A stretch of DNA of 64,000 nt from NCBI GenBank assembly GCA_028866575.1, contig JAGWHU010000001.1, forward strand, positions 64,197-128,196, written 5' to 3'. Positions 40,645-49,933 of the stretch are shown in pieces. The translations under genes and the position numbers were made by a program. Position 1 is the first letter of the stretch; every line of letters begins with the position of its first letter. The notes below the pieces were generated by a model. The model did not search any database and was not told the origin of the DNA. It saw nothing but the letters and a program-made list of their open reading frames with translations. The stretch comes from Candidatus Micrarchaeota archaeon. Lineage in GTDB: Archaea; Micrarchaeota; Micrarchaeia; Micrarchaeales; Micrarchaeaceae.

Positions 40645-41529
40645 CTGGCAAAGGCTCCATTCGAAGAACTGCGGGAACGAATGATAAAGAAGGCAAAGGA
40701 GGGCATAAGGAGCTCGTACACCAACGAGGAGCATGCACTCATACAGGCGATAAACGCATATCTGGAAACGAGCAAGTCGTACAACCTCTCATTCGAAAGG
40801 CTGAGCGAATGGTATGGGATATACTTTCCCGAGATAAAGATAGCCAACCCCAAGACGCTTGCAGATCTTGCAATGGTGCTCAACAGCAAGGAGGGCATAG
40901 ACAAGGAGAAGATAAATTCCGTGATAAACGACCCGCAAAAGAGCGAATCGATATACAAAAAGGCCTCGTCAACGATAGGCAGGGACATGAACGAGGACGA
41001 GCATGCGGCGCTGCTCGGGTTTGCCGGTATGAGCAACCAGATGTATGATGCCATGCTTCGGCTTGAATCCTACATAAAAACCGCATCGACTAAAATCATG
41101 CCCAATACAACATACCTCACCGATGAAAAGATAGCTGCGGAGCTGCTCAGCAAGGCAGGCTCCATGGAGCGGCTTGCAACGATGCCCGCGAGCACCATAC
41201 AGCTCCTCGGTGCAGAGAAGGCGCTGTTCAAGCACATAAAATTCGGAAGCAAGCCGCCGAAGTACGGAGTGCTCTTCAAGCTAGCCGAAATAAGCAACGG
41301 TCCGAGGGACAAGCGCGGAAGGATAGCAAGGGCATACGCAACGAAGATAAGCATAGGGCTCAAGGCGGATTTCTACACCAAGAACTTCATAGCAGAGAAG
41401 CTTAAGTCGGATCTCGAGAAGACCATAAAGAAAATAAAGGAAACCCCAAACAAGGGCCCGAGCACCAAGCAAAAAAGGGAATTTAACACTAGGAAGCCGA
41501 GCGCAAGGCCGAAGTGGAGGAAGAAGTGA
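40645..41529 (+). CDS. nop5: Nop5/Nop56-type C/D-box RNP protein, short form
   Basis: Nop5 is the core of archaeal C/D sRNPs that guide 2'-O-methylation, linking L7Ae on the RNA to fibrillarin. The coiled-coil start (ERLSEWYGIYFPEI) and the Nop domain (GSMERLATMPASTIQLLGAEKALFKHI, KPPKYGVLFK) are present, with a basic C-terminus. The fibrillarin-binding N-terminal domain of about 110-120 residues is absent. An ATG occurs at 40681. However, AAAGGTG at 40633-40638 with a 5-6 nt spacer points to CTG 40645 as start, giving LAKAPFEELRER before that ATG. Confidence 0.8.
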   Translation: MAKAPFEELRERMIKKAKEGIRSSYTNEEHALIQAINAYLETSKSYNLSFERLSEWYGIYFPEIKIANPKTLADLAMVLNSKEGIDKEKINSVINDPQKSESIYKKASSTIGRDMNEDEHAALLGFAGMSNQMYDAMLRLESYIKTASTKIMPNTTYLTDEKIAAELLSKAGSMERLATMPASTIQLLGAEKALFKHIKFGSKPPKYGVLFKLAEISNGPRDKRGRIARAYATKISIGLKADFYTKNFIAEKLKSDLEKTIKKIKETPNKGPSTKQKREFNTRKPSARPKWRKK

Positions 41530-41537
41530 ACTGCGCC

Positions 41538-41549
41538 TGCTTCGGGCGA
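41538..41549 (+). repeat. 12-bp island motif, copy 1
   Basis: TGCTTCGGGCGA starts 9 nt after the Nop5 stop. The next ~14 bases (TGGCCTTCAGGTTC) also resemble those after copy 2 (TGCCCTTCAAGTAC). It marks the left edge of the accessory interval. See the repeats at 42344, 46240 and 48132. Confidence 0.7.
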
Positions 41550-41624
41550 TGGCCTTCAGGTTCTGCTCCTGCTCGCTTAAGCACAACGCCCATATAATTT
41601 AAACATTCAGTGAATAATAGTATC

Positions 41625-42320
41625 ATGGCAAAAAGAAGGAAGTCACTACCACACAAGTGGATTCTAGTGGTCATAGTTATCGCAGCCCTGCTAATCGCTG
41701 CGGTTGCCATACTGGACAGTTACAGTATGCCCTACATTAAGCCCTCAAGCTTCAATTCAAGCAACGTATCCAATTCCATGAAGCTTTCGCTTACGATACC
41801 TCACCAGACAGTGGCATACGGAAGCAACGTCTCAATAGAAGTCAGCCTCTTCAACACTGCTTCGCAGGCATACAACATATCAATACACGGCTACTATACG
41901 CAACCTAACACGATAACACTGGGTTCAACGTCTCCATGCGGGGACTGGGAGATGCCACTCGGAATAGCCCTGTTCAAAGGCCACTATAATCTGAGCGAAA
42001 TAAGCATCGGCACAGGTGAGCTGCAGCTTTCAGAGCCTGGTGTATATTTCGGTTGTCCTGCAGAACTGATCGCCACATCATACTACTTCTGGCCTCACAG
42101 CGATAACGCAACGGTCTACATACTCACAAGCGGAACGAACACATCCAAGTACGCAACTCTGCCCATACAGACCACTTTCGTAGTAGGCGGATACTGGAGC
42201 AATTCTACCCTTTTCGGGGATCAATATGCCTTTAACAAATTCCCTGTAGGCAACTATACCGTAGTCGCTGGTAATGGCTACTGGAAGCGATACGTAGTAG
42301 GATACTTCAGGGTCGAATAG
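41625..42320 (+). CDS. Membrane-anchored surface protein, unknown
   Basis: A basic N-terminus (MAKRRKSLPHK), one transmembrane helix (about 12-32) and an external domain of about 190 residues make this a type II surface protein. The external domain is rich in beta strands, aromatic residues and N-x-S/T sequons. It contains two Cys (SPCGDW and FGCPAE) that could form a disulfide. The end FPVGNYTVVAGNGYWKRYVVGYFRVE is typical of small archaeal surface beta-sandwiches. The start ATG 41625 is used; GTG 41610 is possible. It is the only gene between motif copies 1 and 2. Confidence 0.6.
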   Translation: MAKRRKSLPHKWILVVIVIAALLIAAVAILDSYSMPYIKPSSFNSSNVSNSMKLSLTIPHQTVAYGSNVSIEVSLFNTASQAYNISIHGYYTQPNTITLGSTSPCGDWEMPLGIALFKGHYNLSEISIGTGELQLSEPGVYFGCPAELIATSYYFWPHSDNATVYILTSGTNTSKYATLPIQTTFVVGGYWSNSTLFGDQYAFNKFPVGNYTVVAGNGYWKRYVVGYFRVE

Positions 42321-42343
42321 CTACGGCCTAGCCTATGCGCCAG

Positions 42344-42538
42344 CGCACGCCCAGGCGCCCACGCCCCTTACAATTTAAATGATATAAATGAATTTATATA
42401 ATTTATATCTCTATAAATTCATTTAAATGAATGTATAAGTGGTATAAGTACTTATATGCAAAAACAGGGCGAAAACCGACGATATAAAAATCCTTCTTGT
42501 AGGAGATGTGCCTGACGCACATCTTTTGCTTCGGGCGA
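42344..42538 (+). repeat. 195-bp diverged direct repeat, copy A (contains motif copy 2)
   Basis: This A+T-rich block matches the one at 46240-46433 over its whole length, by eye roughly 70-75 percent identical. It runs from CGCACGCC through ACAATTTA, TATAAATGAATTTA, TTCATTTAAATGAA and GGTATA, then ATATAAAAATCCT, CTTGT and GGAGATGTGCCT to TGCTTCGGGCGA. It includes a 14-bp inverted repeat (TAAATGAATTTATA at 42385-42398 with 42412-42425) and an 8-bp hairpin (AGATGTGC/GCACATCT, 42504-42524). I see no open frame shared with copy B. It fills the gap before the hemerythrin gene. The inverted-repeat and hairpin content fits a structured RNA, a promoter-leader or an element end. Confidence 0.75.
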
Positions 42539-42640
42539 TGCCCTTCAAGTACGACCACAGTGCTCAACAGTCCAATGGGAATTTGCAGCATACATCGCAT
42601 CCCGCAACGCTTAAATTGCTTAAAAGACAACACATACCGT

Positions 42641-43204
42641 ATGGAACAGTACGATAAAGAGTTCTTGGAATACATGAAGACCAAGTACAAACTTACGTTG
42701 GATGAAGCAACAAAAGGCACAGAACCGCAGATAATAAAGTTTGCCATCGCATGGGATGTATGGAAGCAGGCAAAGAGCGCTATCTCCCAGAGGGAGCAAG
42801 ACATATACGGATTCATGTCGAGAGATCATTCAAGACTTGACTACATTTTCCAGGAGTTCAGGAAATCGAAAAAAGCGGCAGAAGCAGAGCAACTCTTTTT
42901 GGAATTTAGGGCAGGCATTGAGCGCCATATAAAATGGGAGGAGGATATCCTATTCCCGCTTGCCAAAAAGAAAATGGGAGACGACTCGCCGATGATAGAC
43001 GAACTGATAGTGCAGCACAACAGGATAAAAGCCGATCTAAAGGGATTGGCTGATAGCTTAAAAGCCAGAGATACAACCCTTGAGAACGACTTGGAGCAGT
43101 TGCTGGCAGCACACGATAAGATAGAGGAAGAAGACATGTATCCGTGGATAGATAATTATATCGATGATAAAGCAAAGAAGGAGGCACTATCAAGGATGGT
43201 ATAA
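42641..43204 (+). CDS. Hemerythrin-like (HHE) diiron protein
   Basis: This 187-residue helical protein with the HHE cation-binding pattern binds two irons and O2, NO or peroxide in known relatives. Candidate ligands are His in SRDHSRLDYIF, His and Glu in ERHIKWEEDILFP, His in VQHNRIKADL, and His/Glu in LAAHDKIEEEDMYPWID. An N-terminal ~70 residue helical extension precedes the domain. The frame opens further upstream inside repeat copy A, but the protein proper starts at ATG 42641. It is convergent with the redox operon (8 nt), so they probably serve one response. Confidence 0.85.
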   Translation: MEQYDKEFLEYMKTKYKLTLDEATKGTEPQIIKFAIAWDVWKQAKSAISQREQDIYGFMSRDHSRLDYIFQEFRKSKKAAEAEQLFLEFRAGIERHIKWEEDILFPLAKKKMGDDSPMIDELIVQHNRIKADLKGLADSLKARDTTLENDLEQLLAAHDKIEEEDMYPWIDNYIDDKAKKEALSRMV

Positions 43205-43212
43205 TCCTCACG

Positions 43213-43629
43213 CTATGTCGTATTCCCGCTTTTCCTGCCGATTATCGTGCGCCATATGTTAACTGCGTGCAACAAAACAGCCACTATCATCACTATCAGC
43301 CCTCCCAGAATCACTACTGCCTCCTTCTGGCCTGTGAGCGCAACAACCTCGAATGCAATTATCCCTGCATTTAGGAGGACGTATTCTGCGATTATGACCT
43401 TATAATTTGCTCCGCTATGGCGTGAGACCCCAGGCACAAAAATGTATGAGACGCCAAAAATCAGCTGCGTGACGAAACCATACAATAGCAGTATAAATAT
43501 TGGATCTCTACTTACAGTAATTGCGCCTGACAGGTTAAAAGCAAGAAGTATTGTACCAATTACGAAATACAAGAAACCCGTAGCTATGTAAAGCCTTACC
43601 ATCTTGCTCGTTGCAGCAACATTATCCAT
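43213..43629 (-). CDS. Four-TM membrane protein, haem-oxidase-subunit-like
   Basis: This 138-residue protein has four hydrophobic helices. The segment LLYGFVTQLIFGVSYIFVPG resembles the helix around the first haem ligand of NnrS or cbb3/NorB-type subunit I proteins, but the usual His is Tyr here (YGFVTQ), so haem binding is uncertain. ATG 43629 has GGTG 5 nt upstream. It is the last gene of the minus-strand operon led by PadR. A role in NO or oxygen handling is inferred only from neighbours. Confidence 0.5.
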   Translation of the reverse strand: MDNVAATSKMVRLYIATGFLYFVIGTILLAFNLSGAITVSRDPIFILLLYGFVTQLIFGVSYIFVPGVSRHSGANYKVIIAEYVLLNAGIIAFEVVALTGQKEAVVILGGLIVMIVAVLLHAVNIWRTIIGRKSGNTT

Positions 43630-43658
43630 AAACGCACCGATTATCTCTTGCAGACCAG

Positions 43659-44183
43659 TTATTTATACACTATATTCAGCCTGTTCACCCTTGCGCTTTT
43701 TGTCAGCTCATGAGGTTTTGAATTGGTCGGACTGAAGATGTGCCTGACATCCACACCCCTGACCAGAAGCGCATCTGCTATCAGCGATCTATGGCATCTC
43801 CAAGGTACTGCTTCTGCACACATTATGGCCGTCTGTCTTTTCTTTGCCAGGCTTATAAGCTCAATGAGGCTCTCCCTGAACTCGCTGGTCTGCATATAGT
43901 CTGCGAAGCCTCTGAACGACGCATTGTACCAGTACGTATTGGCTGAATCCTTCAACGGATGTCTGAGGCCTCCAAGTCCTTTCATATGCATGTAGCGTAT
44001 GCGATGCCTTTTCAGACCGGCAGCTAACCTTTTCTCATTGAACTGAGGGTTGGCCCTGGACTTTGGTATTGTGCGTATATCTACCAGTTCTTTTATCTTA
44101 TACGCATCCAGTAGTCCCATAAATTCACCGAGTTTGCGTATAGAATGCCCTACGGTAAATACAAGCAGCTTATTTTTAGCCAT
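43659..44183 (-). CDS. DUF488 family protein
   Basis: It has the DUF488 marks: FTVGHSIRKLGEFMGLL near the N-terminus, LVDIRTIPKSRANPQFN, then YMHMKGLGGLR, and later CAEAVPWRCHRSLIADAL with the conserved CxE...CHR pattern. The biochemical role of the family is unsettled. It overlaps the end of the glycosylase gene by 8 nt, so the two are translationally coupled. DUF488 genes are often found beside redox and nucleic-acid repair genes. Confidence 0.9.
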   Translation of the reverse strand: MAKNKLLVFTVGHSIRKLGEFMGLLDAYKIKELVDIRTIPKSRANPQFNEKRLAAGLKRHRIRYMHMKGLGGLRHPLKDSANTYWYNASFRGFADYMQTSEFRESLIELISLAKKRQTAIMCAEAVPWRCHRSLIADALLVRGVDVRHIFSPTNSKPHELTKSARVNRLNIVYK

Positions 44184-44712
44184 GTGTTGCCACCCTGTTT
44201 ATCTCCCGTAACTCTCTAATCCTGACAAGCGCTTTTCCTCTTATCGGGAAGTGCATAACATACGCCTTTGAGTTGTAAATATCCTCCTGCCAGCCGAATC
44301 TGAAATCATCATTTCCTGTGAATTTTGAATAGGTTACCTTTCCTATAAAACAGACCACACTGGGCTTATTCAAGGAAACCAGCCGTAAAATTCTTCTTCT
44401 GCCGTTATTTTCTTCACCGCGCTTCAGCTGAGACACATCACGTGAAGGTCTGGTTATTATATTGGTAAAATTGAGATTATACACCTTCAGGAATTTTTCC
44501 CTGTATAACCGCCTTAGGTCTTTGTCATTTCTCAGATCCTCGATATCCTCATCTATTATCCTAGAACGATTCAGAAGGTACCAGAACATCTTGTTATTTG
44601 AAAAGGGAATGCCACGCCTGTATGATCCATGATGCGGATTTATTCCCACGAACATTATCTTCGCATTTTTAGATGTGACATAGCGTATAATGAAATCACC
44701 AGCAAACACCAT
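44176..44712 (-). CDS. Mug/TDG-type uracil/thymine DNA glycosylase
   Basis: The uracil-DNA-glycosylase fold is shown by MFVGINPHHGSYRRGIPFSNN near residue 20, corresponding to the GINPG catalytic motif with Asn as in Mug/TDG. Next comes FWYLLNRS, and near the C-terminus VMHFPIRGK in place of the intercalation loop. It would excise U or T from mismatches, products of cytosine deamination such as those caused by nitrosative stress. Length is normal at 178. It is in the PadR-led operon. Confidence 0.78.
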   Translation of the reverse strand: MVFAGDFIIRYVTSKNAKIMFVGINPHHGSYRRGIPFSNNKMFWYLLNRSRIIDEDIEDLRNDKDLRRLYREKFLKVYNLNFTNIITRPSRDVSQLKRGEENNGRRRILRLVSLNKPSVVCFIGKVTYSKFTGNDDFRFGWQEDIYNSKAYVMHFPIRGKALVRIRELREINRVATHG

Positions 44713-44777
44713 TATTCCACGGCAAACGCAATCTCATACGACTCAGCATATGCCTCATGCAACCTACTACCTAATCA

Positions 44778-45494
44778 TCAATATCCTGCAAATTCCTCTA
44801 TCCTCACATCGTCTTCGCTGATTCCTGCCTTTGCCAGCATTTCCCTCATTTCGGATACCATCGCAGGCGGACCTGCTATATAATAGACAACTCCTTTGCC
44901 ATCCTCATCTGAATATTTACGTATCATGTCCATGTTTATGTGGCCGTTCTCGTAACCTTCAACCTGTTCACGCGTCAATGAAGCTACCAGCTTGAATTTC
45001 CTGTTCTTCAGCTCAAATTCTTTCAGTTCAGCGATGAATGCCGCATCTTTCGCAGTTTTATTTGAATAAAACAGTATGATTCTGTTGTCTAGCTTGTTTT
45101 CAGTGGCATAAGCTATCATACTTCTCATAGGCGTAATGCCTATCCCTCCTGCTATCATGATGGCTAACCGTGAAGCGTCTTTGGGAAGCGTAAAATCTCC
45201 CATGGGGCCCTCCAGAGTCACAATGGTTCCCATGCTCATCTCTTTTAGGCTATTCTTGAAAGCTGTGTTCCTCATCCTGGTGGTGACGCATATGTACTCC
45301 TTCTCGTTTGGTGAACTGCCTATAGTGAATGTTCTTCTATTGCCTTCGTCATCGGTGTGCGGTGGGTTATTCAGCGTTATGTCTACAAACTGCCCTGCCC
45401 TGAATGTAAATTCCTTGGGCCTGCTGAACTTGAAGCCAATAGTATCACGCGCCACATCTTCCTTTTCCAGCAATCTTACTTCATATTTCGCCAT
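44778..45494 (-). CDS. FAD/NAD(P)H oxidoreductase (ferredoxin-reductase-like)
   Basis: A soluble flavoreductase with an FAD domain (RRTFTIGSSP, GPMGDFTLP) and a NAD(P) domain (IAGGIGITPMRSMI, YYIAGPPAMV), like the reductase half of flavohaemoglobin or phenol hydroxylase. There is no iron-sulfur or globin domain. It would pass electrons to a partner such as hemerythrin or the membrane protein in the same island. The start ATG 45494 is preceded by GGCGGTGAT, a very strong ribosome-binding site, so the longer open frame is not used. Confidence 0.85.
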   Translation of the reverse strand: MAKYEVRLLEKEDVARDTIGFKFSRPKEFTFRAGQFVDITLNNPPHTDDEGNRRTFTIGSSPNEKEYICVTTRMRNTAFKNSLKEMSMGTIVTLEGPMGDFTLPKDASRLAIMIAGGIGITPMRSMIAYATENKLDNRIILFYSNKTAKDAAFIAELKEFELKNRKFKLVASLTREQVEGYENGHINMDMIRKYSDEDGKGVVYYIAGPPAMVSEMREMLAKAGISEDDVRIEEFAGY

Positions 45495-45576
45495 ATCACC
45501 GCCTATTAAATACGACTGGGCCCGAAAGCGGCGGGGGATAGCCGCATAATCCACCGCCTCGGGCGTGTGGGGGTGC

Positions 45577-45708
45577 CTACATCTTATGGTATTTCTTGTT
45601 GTGCTCCTTCAATTCGGATTCGCCATGCATCCTCATGTTACCGCACGGCACGCAAAGGTAGTCTGCGTGGTCCCCATGTTTCTCGGCCTTTATATCTATG
45701 CTTGCCAT
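45577..45708 (-). CDS. Mini C2H2 zinc-finger protein, 43 aa
   Basis: This small gene lies between PadR and the flavoreductase on the minus strand. The protein begins MASIDIKAEKHGD and contains YLCVPCGNMRMH then LKEHNKKYHKM. The spacing C19-x2-C22-x13-H36-x4-H41 is that of a classical C2H2 finger. ATG 45708 has GGTG exactly 5 nt upstream, as strong a translation signal as any in the window, and PadR ends 11 nt before. Archaea encode a few such single-finger proteins; function unknown. Confidence 0.7.
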   Translation of the reverse strand: MASIDIKAEKHGDHADYLCVPCGNMRMHGESELKEHNKKYHKM

Positions 45709-45719
45709 ATTCTCACCTA

Positions 45720-46115
45720 TTAAGCAGAAATCTCCTTAAGCCCTACCCGCTTCAAACCTACAGCTGCGGATCTATCTGGATCAAATATTGTATTACTGCA
45801 ACGTTCGCAAGGCCTCAGCTTCGGCTGTACTGCTATATTGAAAAGGTAATCTAAGTTATACAAAACCTGACCGACAAACCTCTTACCTTCAGGAGTAAGA
45901 TAATAGATTTGCCTATCTCTTGCTTCCTTTCCTTCAGACGAAATGTAGCGATTTTTCTTCAACTGCTTCAGGAACGGATACATCTGTCCAGGGCTCGGTT
46001 TACTGCCAAGTTTCTCTCCAAGCTGCTTTATCAGCTCGTAGCCATGTCTTTTTCGTTCGTTTAGCAACAGGAGAACAAACAGTCTTGACGTGCTCTTTAT
46101 TTGTATCTCAGCCAT
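45720..46115 (-). CDS. PadR-family transcriptional regulator
   Basis: It has the PadR winged helix: STSRLFVLLLLNERKRHGYELIKQL, then GSKPSPGQMYPFLKQLKKNRYI and RDRQIYYLTPEGKRFV. The C-terminal part is short and holds a CERC pair that might bind metal or react with oxidants. It heads a run PadR, mini zinc finger, flavoreductase, Mug, DUF488, membrane protein with short gaps. A perfect palindrome just upstream of its start suggests autoregulation of the operon. Confidence 0.85.
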   Translation of the reverse strand: MAEIQIKSTSRLFVLLLLNERKRHGYELIKQLGEKLGSKPSPGQMYPFLKQLKKNRYISSEGKEARDRQIYYLTPEGKRFVGQVLYNLDYLFNIAVQPKLRPCERCSNTIFDPDRSAAVGLKRVGLKEISA

Positions 46116-46126
46116 AGTCCCACACT

Positions 46127-46149
46127 AATATATCTTCATTAGATATATT
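46127..46149 (-). promoter_or_regulatory. Palindromic operator before padR
   Basis: AATATATCT (46127-46135) and AGATATATT (46141-46149) form a perfect 9-bp inverted repeat with a 5-nt spacer, 12-34 nt upstream of the PadR start. It overlaps the most TATA-like sequence there, so a bound PadR dimer would block transcription. Confidence 0.6.
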
Positions 46150-46239
46150 TAAATTAGTAATATCATAACTGAGTAATAAAGTAAAATCTGCGCTTGTGGG
46201 CCATCTAGAGATCGACTGGCCAAGCGTCATGCATCTAGA

Positions 46240-46433
46240 CGCACGCCAATGCATGCCCACACCCTACAATTTATAATATAAATGAATTTAAACAATAAAC
46301 CTTCTTGTAACTTCATTTAAATGAACGTATATCTGGTATATGTTCTTATACAGGGCAAAATATGCGAAAATCGACGGTATAAAAATCCTCCTTGTCGGAG
46401 ATGTGCCTCACGCGCATCTTGTGCTTCGGGCGA
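46240..46433 (+). repeat. 195-bp diverged direct repeat, copy B (contains motif copy 3)
   Basis: The partner of copy A, with the same order of blocks. The hairpin AGATGTGC/GCGCATCT (46399-46419) keeps pairing through a G-T wobble where copy A has A-T, and the 14-bp inverted repeat is reduced to TAAATGAA/TTCATTTA. The motif TGCTTCGGGCGA ends it at 46422-46433. It lies in the 461-nt gap between PadR and the A+T-rich genes. The remaining 143 nt of the gap hold only A+T-rich promoter-like sequence (CATTATTATATTTC near 46540). Confidence 0.75.
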
Positions 46434-46576
46434 AATGGGAAGCTTGTCGTCGAAGAACTTGGATTTTGTCGTCAGATGTTCGGTTTATGTCCTTTTTCCT
46501 GGAATCGCTCTTCCTCAAATTTACCATTTTTATGAAACATTATTATATTTCAGCGGGAATATAATAATGAGATAAA

Positions 46577-47188
46577 ATGACTACAAAAATCTTAGATAAA
46601 GAAAAAAGTTTTAAGAAAAGGTTAGGAGTATTCAAAATACCCTATACTAATACATTTAAACCTGTGTTGGAAGGTTATCATTTTAAATTTACTTTGTTAT
46701 TACCAATAAGCGAAGAGAAGAAAATACTTAGAAGACCGTTCGCTGTAGAAAAGTCTATCTTTACTCCTGCGGATCTTGATACTCTTGAAATGCATTTTGA
46801 AAAACATTTAGGAGGGTATACAAGTTTTAGATACAAAGTAAAATATTCAGAAGATGAACTAAAGAATATCCCAAAGGCGTTCCTACCTTTCTTGCCAGAA
46901 ACACCTATTGGAATTCCGCATATACTAGCATCACCTACAATAAGAGGAGCATGGATTAATAAAGAGAAGAAAACAATAGTAAATAGACATGTAAGATATG
47001 ACGTTTATACATTACGACACAATAACGTAATGGAATATTTCAAGAAATTAAGACGAATACTCGAGGAACAATCAAGAGAAAAGATAATAGTAATAGAACA
47101 GGCCGAAGTTACAATTGTACCAGGAATTTCTCCTGAATTAAAACCATTGTTGAGAAAAATAAAAAACTTGGAGAAAAAACAAAGATAA
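46577..47188 (+). CDS. Unknown protein of A+T-rich gene pair (1)
   Basis: This 203-residue soluble, Lys-rich protein has no recognised family. Hydrophobic and aromatic segments alternate (GYHFKFTLLLPISEEKK, LGGYTSFRYKVKYSE, HVRYDVYTLRHNNVMEYFKK) with a predicted helical C-terminus, suggesting a mixed alpha/beta fold. Codon use is strongly A+T-ending (AAA, AGA, TTA, ATA), unlike the genes on either side, a sign of recent transfer. It is followed 23 nt later by a second gene with the same base bias. Confidence 0.55.
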   Translation: MTTKILDKEKSFKKRLGVFKIPYTNTFKPVLEGYHFKFTLLLPISEEKKILRRPFAVEKSIFTPADLDTLEMHFEKHLGGYTSFRYKVKYSEDELKNIPKAFLPFLPETPIGIPHILASPTIRGAWINKEKKTIVNRHVRYDVYTLRHNNVMEYFKKLRRILEEQSREKIIVIEQAEVTIVPGISPELKPLLRKIKNLEKKQR

Positions 47189-47211
47189 AAATATTTTAAT
47201 ATAGTGATATT

Positions 47212-47490
47212 ATGAAGACAAAATCAAAATTCGAAGAAAAAGAATCAGGAATAAAAGACGAAAATACATATATGTTAATATTTCCTTCTCGAAAAGCAAG
47301 GATAGAAGGAAAAGAGGCAATGTCAGAAGCTGGAGGCATTAGACAAGGGGCATACATAGATGGAGAGCACGTTTCTATTGTTTGGGGATTTCAAGTAAGA
47401 GAATTAAATAGGCTCAAGATACCCTACCGTTTTTATACCGAATTATCTAGAAAAACCAATCATAACAATCACAGAATACTTAGGAAATAA
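47212..47490 (+). CDS. Unknown protein of A+T-rich gene pair (2)
   Basis: A 92-residue protein with no recognised family. An N-terminal charged stretch precedes YMLIFPSRKARIEGKEAMSE, then GAYIDGEHVSIVWGFQVREL and a basic end. It could be a small nucleic-acid-binding or structural protein, but nothing proves it. Its codon bias matches the preceding gene, with which it likely forms an operon. Confidence 0.5.
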   Translation: MKTKSKFEEKESGIKDENTYMLIFPSRKARIEGKEAMSEAGGIRQGAYIDGEHVSIVWGFQVRELNRLKIPYRFYTELSRKTNHNNHRILRK

Positions 47491-47548
47491 TATAGTTGAG
47501 CATACCAAAGACAGGATATAAGTATAGACCGATACGAAGGGAGATGGA

Positions 47549-48064
47549 ATGATAAAATCTTACAAGAATCTAGATAAAATAGACAGAAGCCTTATAGACA
47601 GTGCAGACAAGATAGTAAAAAATGGGTACGACCCTTATAGTAAATTTTATGTTGGTGCTGCCCTACTCGCCGAATCTGGGGCTGTCTATACTGGTGCGAA
47701 TATAAACACGTGTGCATATGCATCTATCTGTGCAGAAAGGATAGCGATTGGAAATGCAGTGACAAACGGTGAATATTTGTTTAAAAAAATAGCAGTCATT
47801 GCAAAATCCGACTTTAACGAAGTAAATGTACTGTCTGGTCCATGTGGGATATGCAGGCAGATGCTTTGGGAGTTTGCCGAATTGTCAAAAGGAGACATAG
47901 AGATATTGGTGGCTGACAGTAGCAAGGATAAAGTTTTAGTCACAACGATAAAAAACCTGCACCAATATGGGTTCGGGCCAAGATTGTGTGAGGGTGACTT
48001 CCAGAAGTACATAAGGAATGGTAACTCACATAAGCATTCAAAGCGTCAAACTGTGAAATCTTAA
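47549..48064 (+). CDS. cdd: Cytidine deaminase
   Basis: Converts (deoxy)cytidine to (deoxy)uridine for pyrimidine salvage. The zinc site is complete: CAERIAIGNAV supplies Cys and Glu, and PCGICRQML supplies the two Cys of the tetrameric-type CDA. The N-terminal YDPYSKFYVGAALL binds substrate. A Lys/His-rich tail of about 20 residues follows the normal C-terminus. It lies inside the third module of the accessory interval, 68 nt before motif copy 4, with moderate A+T bias. Confidence 0.92.
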   Translation: MIKSYKNLDKIDRSLIDSADKIVKNGYDPYSKFYVGAALLAESGAVYTGANINTCAYASICAERIAIGNAVTNGEYLFKKIAVIAKSDFNEVNVLSGPCGICRQMLWEFAELSKGDIEILVADSSKDKVLVTTIKNLHQYGFGPRLCEGDFQKYIRNGNSHKHSKRQTVKS

Positions 48065-48131
48065 CTTCATAAGACGAGAAGAATTTGATAGAATAAATAA
48101 GGTGCGGGCTATGAACAAAATGAATAACACC

Positions 48132-48143
48132 TGCTTCGGGCGA
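48132..48143 (+). repeat. 12-bp island motif, copy 4
   Basis: TGCTTCGGGCGA lies between cytidine deaminase and the ClC gene end, 12 nt from the latter, in the same orientation as the other three. The flanks do not resemble the longer repeat. It marks the right edge of the accessory interval. Confidence 0.7.
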
Positions 48144-48154
48144 TATTAAAACGG

Positions 48155-49933
48155 CTAAGAAACCCAGTCCAGGTCTATTACATCGTTGCCGAGATCGTTT
48201 ATCTGGACCTTGTACTTGGCTATGACGTCGCTTAGCTTCACGAAGCCCACGTACTTCCCGTTCTCCTCCACTATTGGCATCCACCTGGAGTTGTTCTTGT
48301 GCATTGAGGACATGAGGTTGTCTATGTTGCTGGTCTGCCTTATTGGGGTCATGTTCTTCATTATCGACTTTCTGATGCTTCCGTTAACCTTCTTGTAGGA
48401 TAGGACGCCCACGAACTTGCCTGTGCTTGTAACCGGTATCGAATTGAGCTTGTATTTTTTCATGAAGTCTATTCCCTGATCCGTGGTCGCATTTACGTCC
48501 AGGCCGTCCTTTATTATCAGGCTTTCCGATATGCTGTACCTCATCGCATCCTTGAGCAGCGGCTTCAGGTGCTCTATCTCGTGGGCTGGGGAAACCTCCC
48601 TGTTTTCCACCTGCGACTTGTAAAGGCTGCCGCTGCCCGAAATGAAATACGCTATGAACGTGGCTATCATCGCCGCGGCAAGAAGCGTCAGGCTTCCTGT
48701 CATCTCTATCACCATGATCATCACGGCTATCGGCGTCTTTCCTGCCGCGCCGAAAAGGCTTAGCATGCCTATTATGACGAACGGCGTTATCGAAGGCACC
48801 AATACCGGGAACATGATGTGCATTGAAGTTCCGAACAATGCACCAAGGGATCCTCCTATGAATATTCCTGGTGCAAACTCCCCTCCGCTTCCTCCCGAGC
48901 CGAGGGTGAGCCCTGTCGCGAGTATCTTTGCCAATGGCAGCATGAACAGCACCATCAACAGCGGGAGTCCGAAAGTCGGTATCAGGTTCAGCTGCTGGTT
49001 CACGAAAATCTGCAGCCACCCGTACCCTATGGCGATGGTTTCGGGGAACATTATGAATATCAATCCTGCAATAAGGCCGCCCAAAGCGGGCTTGAGGAAC
49101 CTCCTTATCTTCAGCTTCCTGAACTTGTCGCTTATGTAGTGTGACGACTTGTAGTACATTACCGCATACAGGCCAGTAAGCAGGCCGAGTATGCCGAAGA
49201 ATATCAGCGTGGTGAGGTTTATCACCCCCGAGTACCTGCCCAATATTGGCGCGAACCCGAAGAACGAGCAGAATATGGTGTAGCTTATCGCTGTTGCTAT
49301 GAACGACGGGAGTATGGCATTCGCCTCAAAGTCGTTCTTATAAAGCACCTCTGTTCCGAAAATTGCACCGCCAAACGGCGCCTTGAACACTGCTCCAAGC
49401 CCAGCGCCTATCCCTATTACGAGCGCTGTCCTCCTCTCTTCTGCATTCAGGCCAAGGAATTCCCCTATGCTCGATCCTATTCCTGCGCCTATCGCCGAGC
49501 TTGGGCCTTCGTTCCCTGCGCTTCCACCTGTGCCTATCGTGATGACCGATGCTATGAACCTTATTACCGTGCTCCGCTTCTTTATCTCGCCGTTGTCGTT
49601 GTGGAATGCACTTATCGCGCTGCCGGTTCCTCCATAGCCCTCATCAGGCTCGAACGAATGCCTTATCAGCCCCACTATAAGGCCGCCTATTGCTGCTATA
49701 ATCGGTATGAGCCATATCTTTGCATCAGGCGTGTAATGGTAGCTTATGGTGCCTCCCTCGCTGTAGGAGTTCGGTATGCTCAGTCCTATTATCTTGCCGA
49801 AAACCGAGCCTAGCACCGAGCTTACAGTAAAGAAAAACAGAGAGATGGTTAAGCCTACAACAACCCCTATGATAATACTCAATATTATCCATTTGGGGAG
49901 GTACGGCAAATCCCTCAGTCTTGTACGTTGCAT
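48155..49933 (-). CDS. ClC-family chloride channel/transporter with CBS pair
   Basis: A membrane protein that moves Cl- or other anions, with or without proton exchange. ClC selectivity loops are present: GTGGSAGNEGPSSAIGAG with the gating Glu in GNEGP (Arg is more usual than Asn), and GSGGSGGEFAPGIFIGG. About ten to eleven hydrophobic helices span residues 15-430. The C-terminal ~150 residues form two CBS domains (DGLDVNATTDQGIDFM, TPIRQTSNIDNLMSSM) that sense nucleotides in relatives. The length of 592 is typical. Whether it is a channel or an antiporter is not clear. Confidence 0.93.
   Translation of the reverse strand: MQRTRLRDLPYLPKWIILSIIIGVVVGLTISLFFFTVSSVLGSVFGKIIGLSIPNSYSEGGTISYHYTPDAKIWLIPIIAAIGGLIVGLIRHSFEPDEGYGGTGSAISAFHNDNGEIKKRSTVIRFIASVITIGTGGSAGNEGPSSAIGAGIGSSIGEFLGLNAEERRTALVIGIGAGLGAVFKAPFGGAIFGTEVLYKNDFEANAILPSFIATAISYTIFCSFFGFAPILGRYSGVINLTTLIFFGILGLLTGLYAVMYYKSSHYISDKFRKLKIRRFLKPALGGLIAGLIFIMFPETIAIGYGWLQIFVNQQLNLIPTFGLPLLMVLFMLPLAKILATGLTLGSGGSGGEFAPGIFIGGSLGALFGTSMHIMFPVLVPSITPFVIIGMLSLFGAAGKTPIAVMIMVIEMTGSLTLLAAAMIATFIAYFISGSGSLYKSQVENREVSPAHEIEHLKPLLKDAMRYSISESLIIKDGLDVNATTDQGIDFMKKYKLNSIPVTSTGKFVGVLSYKKVNGSIRKSIMKNMTPIRQTSNIDNLMSSMHKNNSRWMPIVEENGKYVGFVKLSDVIAKYKVQINDLGNDVIDLDWVS

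Follow-up and report, generated by a model that had tools for sequence, protein, structure and literature searches.

The 64,000-nucleotide stretch analyzed here (the window; positions 64,197 to 128,196 of contig JAGWHU010000001.1 in the Candidatus Micrarchaeota archaeon assembly GCA_028866575.1) contains, between the genes for Nop5 and a ClC-type channel or transporter, an accessory interval punctuated by four identical copies of the 12-mer TGCTTCGGGCGA, all in plus orientation. The arrangement described in the first-pass annotation was confirmed. The outer copies abut the flanking genes, with the Nop5 stop codon 9 nt before copy 1 and the ClC stop codon 12 nt after copy 4, and copies 2 and 3 form the right ends of a diverged 195-bp repeat that is 71 to 90% identical in blocks. 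Three gene modules lie between the copies, namely, a surface-type protein; a hemerythrin-domain protein with DUF488, UDG-like, FAD/NAD oxidoreductase, and PadR genes; and a pair of 203- and 92-residue proteins with a cytidine deaminase. All other matches to the 12-mer in the window carry two mismatches, and by our own estimate about 0.01 exact copies of a given 12-mer are expected per 64 kb. The interval is best explained as a row of three mobile gene cassettes whose joints are a site-specific recombination core with the sequence of the tRNA-Asn(GTT) 3′ end; taken as a whole, this explanation is given a probability of about 0.87.

The motif, which had been proposed to be a recombination site at which cassettes build up, is not scattered over ordinary genes. 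The whole source genome (G000; 1.13 Mb in 53 contigs) contains seven exact copies in two clusters, and the reversed motif, used as a control, gave none. Four copies are on the window contig (C1) and three are on a second contig (C2), within one 7.4-kb stretch and in one orientation. On C2, the first copy makes up the final 12 nt, and hence the 3′ end, of a tRNA-Asn(GTT) gene (...GGTTCGATCCC-TGCTTCGGGCGA), and the other two are in an array just downstream. This array carries modules of the window: the hemerythrin, 138-residue protein, and DUF488 genes match at 88.9% nucleotide identity over 1,688 bp, and two forms of the 203- and 92-residue pair are present. The interval in the window thus represents another array of this type. 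Further cassettes on C2 encode a protein with a RibD C-terminal domain, an AHSA1 protein, a large secreted protein, and a 2′-5′ RNA ligase-like protein, and the right half of the 195-bp repeat, used as a query, revealed further, slightly differing sites in the same stretch. The source genome also has a second tRNA-Asn(GTT) gene (C5:62541-62616; L043:17541-17616), which has a different acceptor stem and next to which no array was seen; this redundancy may explain why the C2 gene tolerates insertions.

Around the core, unrelated modules share a conserved site of the form TATTTAAA...CCTTGTCGGAGATGTGCCTGACGCACATCTTG, TGCTTCGGGCG, ATGCGCTTCAAGTTC, in which a hairpin, GATGTGCCTGACGCACATC-TTG, precedes the core and a partial inverted repeat follows it. 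In the fetched array loci, 78 such sites, including copies 2 and 3 of the window, score above 40 by a position matrix, compared with a maximum of −14 for shuffled sequence. A TATA-like box is found upstream of the core, at positions −46 to −38, in 61 of the 78. The site consensus folds, and the small 7-bp hairpin (stem A) is paired in 91% of cells, with one weakly covarying pair (P = 0.03); a further candidate stem (stem B) found no support. Across the core runs a dyad, CCTGACGCNCATC / GATGCGCTTCAGG, with 7.7 of 13 pairs formed versus at most 3.6 when it is slid, which would fit two inverted recombinase-binding arms. The left end of a cassette is marked by a TTCAAG or TTCAGG motif just after the core; in the window, core 1 is followed by the left end TGGCCTTCAGGTTCTGCTC. 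Among copies of one cassette that are otherwise 94 to 98% identical (L168:1-9152, L165:4416-6247, L162:2280-3737, and L169:6514-7972), there is strong divergence in the ∼36 nt that directly follow the core, which suggests that this stretch is swapped or converted separately.

Comparison of core-to-core intervals by nucleotide BLAST revealed that whole cassettes recur in different genera and families, from core to core and at about 79 to 98% nucleotide identity, whereas the 300-bp flanks of the shared cassettes are unrelated except for short pieces. Examples are the 1.8-kb hemerythrin cassette (G000, G047, G108, and G131; 88 to 98%), a 1,457-bp cassette for an AAA_14/DUF4143 ATPase (G043, G047, G087, and G107; 94 to 98%), and AHSA1 cassettes of 0.57 kb (G003, G048, G114, and G123; 79 to 94%) and 0.54 kb (G000, G019, and G134; 80 to 96.5%). 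A cassette that is first after tRNA-Asn in one genome can be internal in another. The RibD cassette protein is 97% identical between the source genome and G059, whereas the chromosomal genes upstream of tRNA-Asn are only 24 to 50% identical. A genus-mate of the source organism (G001) has the same upstream genes and an identical tRNA-Asn, followed by unrelated ordinary genes without a core. The proposed accumulation of cassettes at a recombination site is thus borne out in three ways: the same motifs enclose different cassettes, identical cassettes have different surroundings, and the tRNA-Asn gene of the genus-mate is unoccupied. Of 63 core-to-core intervals, 62 measure 0.3 to 5.5 kb and one measures 11.2 kb, and many of the genes adjoining a site face it with their 3′ end.

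In a wider search with the pattern ACGCACATCTTGTGCTTCGGGC, allowing up to three mismatches and using the reversed pattern as a control, the extended site was found in 47 of the 164 genomes of the source organism's order (Micrarchaeota), representing 26 of its 54 genera and both families; the control gave no hit. In the rest of the phylum, 3 of 137 genomes had weak matches, none of which qualifies as the site by the matrix. The exact pattern occurs on 29 contigs of named genomes, most of them titled Micrarchaeota; three with other titles (two Marsarchaeota and one “bacterium”) contain the full site, and a match in Janthinobacterium lacks the rest of the site and is attributed to chance. No viral contig has the site by the exact pattern. 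In all 30 fetched loci that have both tRNA-Asn and sites on the contig, every site is downstream of tRNA-Asn and on the same strand; many of the remaining fetched loci are contig ends or short contigs. No right ends of the cassette type with cores of other tRNAs were seen among the sites, the variants being tied to tRNA-Asn or having decayed cores. The tRNA-Asn genes of the hosts end in TGCTTC, TGCATC, or TGCAGC, each followed by GGGC, and the rare AGC form of the site was found in 3 of the 6 hosts with an AGC tRNA versus 0 of 45 others among those counted (P = 0.001). Such a match would follow if part of the tRNA tail is exchanged for the core of an incoming cassette, which then has to pair with the acceptor stem.

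Cassette 2 of the window is longer than its relatives elsewhere, and the match of its hemerythrin part runs up to the DUF488 gene. The UDG, oxidoreductase, and PadR genes beyond this point look like a second cassette that may have lost its boundary site. The 203- and 92-residue pair of cassette 3 (46577-47490) is also found in two tRNA-Asn cassettes on C2 and in one that follows tRNA-Thr; it had no Pfam or PHROG match, and the structure model of the 203-residue protein is poor (pLDDT of 46). The features of the interval are listed in Table 1.

Table 1. Recombination cores, cassette ends, and genes of the Nop5-ClC interval (window coordinates)
Feature	Position	Strand	Remarks
Nop5, left chromosomal flank	40681..41529	+	
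Recombination core 1, TGCTTCGGGCGA	41538..41549	+	Equals tRNA-Asn 3′ end; left array border beside Nop5
Putative surface protein, cassette 1	41610..42320	+	N-terminal membrane segment; no Pfam match
Conserved cassette right end, site 2	42344..42538	+	TATA-like box, hairpin GATGTGCCTGACGCACATC, TTT, core TGCTTCGGGCGA; site score 88.0
Recombination core 2	42527..42538	+	Exact TGCTTCGGGCGA
Hemerythrin-domain protein, cassette 2	42641..43204	+	Cassette common to C2 array, G047, G108, G131
138-residue predicted membrane protein, cassette 2	43213..43629	-	
DUF488 protein, cassette 2	43659..44183	-	Last gene common with 1.8-kb cassette form
UDG-superfamily protein, cassette 2	44176..44712	-	
FAD/NAD oxidoreductase, cassette 2	44778..45497	-	
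PadR-family regulator, cassette 2	45720..46115	-	
Conserved cassette right end, site 3	46240..46433	+	Hairpin GATGTGCCTCACGCGCATC, TTG, core; site score 61.9
Recombination core 3	46422..46433	+	Exact TGCTTCGGGCGA
203-residue protein of unknown family, cassette 3	46577..47188	+	Homologues on C2 (two), C4, C13
92-residue partner of 203-residue protein, cassette 3	47212..47490	+	
Cytidine deaminase, cassette 3	47549..48064	+	
Recombination core 4	48132..48143	+	Right array border beside ClC
ClC-type channel/transporter, right chromosomal flank	48155..49933	-	First-pass assignment, consistent with sequence

Recombination is probably catalyzed by a tyrosine recombinase that resembles XerA and has a C-terminal zinc ribbon. 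A gene of this type follows tRNA-Asn directly and is intact in G052 and G131, and the integrase gene in this position is broken in G039, G087, and G038. In G090, an integrase fragment occupies the second slot, behind a cassette, which is the order that insertion next to the tRNA would produce. The same integrase family is found directly after tRNA-Arg and tRNA-Thr in the source genome and after tRNA-Ala, tRNA-His, and tRNA-Glu in relatives, so that the enzyme serving the arrays of the source genome may act in trans or may have been lost. The two integrase elements of the source genome are on C4 (L040 to L042, at ∼26.8 to 33.1 kb and 40 to 54 kb). The right end of the 6.2-kb tRNA-Arg element has a tRNA-Arg core but resembles the right ends of the two pair cassettes at tRNA-Asn. 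The 12.6-kb tRNA-Thr element carries genes that look like a type I restriction-modification system and an adenine methylase and is followed by a cassette with a 203- and 92-residue-like pair. The first segment after tRNA-Asn in G052 (L154:1296-12461) spans 11 kb and combines the integrase with a type I restriction-modification methylase, with defense genes as cargo. N-terminal integrase fragments from two genera (L161:400-520 and L177:5316-5436) break at the same codon and have different continuations, as if there were a common breakpoint inside the gene, and three tyrosine recombinase genes stand in a row within 2.7 kb at L189 (G131:C50:1-3554).

A cassette is ∼0.3 to 5 kb of DNA with its left end just after a core and a right end composed of the TATA-like box, the small hairpin, TTG, and the core. 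The site, its tRNA identity, the arrays, and the exchange of cassettes between genera are read directly from the sequences, whereas integration and excision, the enzyme, the circular intermediate, the direction of growth, and the origin of the copy at Nop5 are deduced by comparison. In the proposed mechanism, the tyrosine recombinase would link a circular cassette, through its site, with the core of the tRNA-Asn gene; as the incoming DNA supplies an identical 3′ end, the tRNA would stay intact. Each newest cassette would then adjoin the tRNA and push older ones downstream, and recombination between any two cores would allow cassettes to leave or to be rearranged. The recombinase itself would be encoded directly after tRNA-Asn in some genomes and, for the source genome, would act in trans or have been lost.

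Insertion at a secondary core-like site beside Nop5, or transfer to such a site, is the most likely origin of the array in the window. If the insertion was site specific, the unoccupied locus between Nop5 and ClC would read AACTGCGCC-TGCTTCGGGCGA-TATTAAAACGG. The interval is not strictly conserved: the Nop5 locus of 19 relatives has no core, and G001 has other genes separating Nop5 from the conserved gene that comes next. A rearrangement that moved part of the tRNA-Asn array to the Nop5-ClC position, or homologous recombination between arrays, could also have placed the array there. The 89% identity of the hemerythrin module between C1 and C2 is consistent with such an event, and an identity of 12 to 14 bp is a short target for a fresh insertion. 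On the other hand, cores stand at both outer borders exactly where the chromosomal genes begin, as predicted by site-specific insertion, and the order of the cassettes and the other cassettes present differ from those on C2. This origin is the less likely one, but a serious rival.

Several observations weigh against cassette capture at the tRNA-Asn core. All genomes are draft metagenome assemblies, and cassettes were seen in neither circular nor excised form. No tRNA borders the window array, which is also unusual in its Nop5-ClC location. The letters of the core fit the host tRNA only in part, the tendency of TT versus AT being nonsignificant. No covariation was found in the dyad pairing across the core, so a mechanism based on single-stranded DNA hairpins is not established. 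Integrases stand beside tRNA-Asn in just five of the examined loci, plus the one second-slot case. No recombinase gene is present at either array of the source genome, and the absence of a recombinase from the window, reported earlier, extends to integrases on the entire window contig. The link between enzyme and cassettes, which is one of position only, is the weakest step.

A rival explanation is ordinary tandem integration, in which each unit would be a decayed or nonautonomous derivative (satellite) of integrative plasmids or viruses specific for tRNA-Asn, with the cassette ends as attP relics and no dedicated capture system. Integrated archaeal elements in tandem are known (PMC8371274), the integrase-bearing elements at tRNA-Arg and tRNA-Thr of the source genome end in a core copy, and the G052 segment is an 11-kb element with its own integrase and methylase. 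Yet most units are 0.3 to 4 kb long and hold a single cargo gene or a few, the annotated genes include none recognized as serving replication or as viral, and a single compact right-end site is kept across unrelated cargo that reassorts freely; satellite integration is a serious but doubtful alternative. The possibility raised in the first-pass annotation, a repeated promoter-leader, is partly sustained by the TATA-like box at a fixed distance from the core and by the hairpin just downstream of the box. As the sole explanation, with the motif being only a promoter-leader or small RNA before expressed genes that was copied by duplication, it was rejected, because cassettes move from core to core; moreover, many genes face the site with their 3′ end, the motif is the 3′ end of a tRNA, and an Rfam search of the region matched no family. 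Highly improbable by itself, a promoter role can be true together with a role in recombination. Identification as a true integron, with IntI and attC as reported in other archaea, hardly merits any credence, even though a small-cassette array with a structured site, and in some genomes with an integrase beside the anchor, is what an integron looks like. Six integrases from the source genome and relatives score 29 to 56 bits against the 265-bit cutoff of the IntI model TIGR02249, and GTTRRRY occurs in 0 and RYYYAAC in 2 of the 78 sites, which is less often than in shuffled sequence. A tRNA gene serves as the anchor, and Micrarchaeota are never named in the text of the archaeal integron survey (PMC9668308). 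As regards casposons, no Cas1 was found among 20 proteins encoded in the two arrays and at their borders, and the left and right cassette ends, compared by eye, do not look like inverted copies of each other.

Capture of cassettes at the tRNA-Asn core would provide the Micrarchaeota, which have small genomes and are mostly known from metagenomes, with a mode of gene gain. The recognizable site can be looked for in any assembly and tells cargo gained recently (hemerythrin, AAA_14 ATPases, AHSA1-like and surface proteins, and restriction-modification) apart from the core genome. The literature searched contains no description of such a system in Micrarchaeota, and as far as that literature goes, the compact conserved cassette site, the pool of identical cassettes that DPANN archaea share across genera, and an array located apart from any tRNA are new. 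These tiny archaea of many genera swap cassettes in an integron-like manner with different parts, and the capture system would be one that lacks IntI and is anchored on a tRNA gene. The odds are about even that it is a second, independently evolved integron-like system, with the tRNA-Asn 3′ end as anchor, a dedicated compact site (TATA-like box, hairpin, core, and inverted arm), a trans-acting, tRNA-specific XerA-like zinc-ribbon recombinase, and a cassette pool common to at least 26 genera.

Compared with known systems, the arrays combine features of several. Like integrons, including the archaeal ones (PMC9668308), they consist of small, promiscuous, exchangeable cassettes in one orientation next to one anchor, with a conserved structured end site and, in some genomes but not in others, a tyrosine recombinase that adjoins the anchor; unlike integrons, they lack IntI and R boxes, are anchored on a tRNA 3′ end, include a TATA-like box, and have many cargo genes facing the anchor. 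The core that equals a tRNA 3′ end and the restored tRNA are shared with archaeal elements that target tRNAs through tyrosine integrases (PMC8371274) and with Islander islands (PMC4383910); as in those, an integrase can stand next to the tRNA, but it does so in some genomes and not at the arrays of the source genome. Most of the units described here are integrase free, far smaller, and several in a row, with a core identity of ∼11 to 15 bp. Tycheposons, as described in PMC10872708, likewise have a tRNA border, a tyrosine recombinase, and cargo, but are single elements of 4 to 200 kb rather than rows of 0.3- to 5-kb cassettes. In the additive flexible islands of Methylophilaceae, repeats of the last 20 bp of tRNA-Lys (PMC10872708) bound variable cargo downstream of the tRNA, much as the recurring tRNA-Asn 3′ ends do here; the units in Micrarchaeota differ in being defined cassettes with a conserved extended site, identical copies of which recur from core to core in different genera and in two families, and one array stands away from any tRNA. 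The arrays work like an integron but lack both of the defining features tested, IntI and attC boxes, and they belong with the tRNA-anchored, site-specifically accreted islands.

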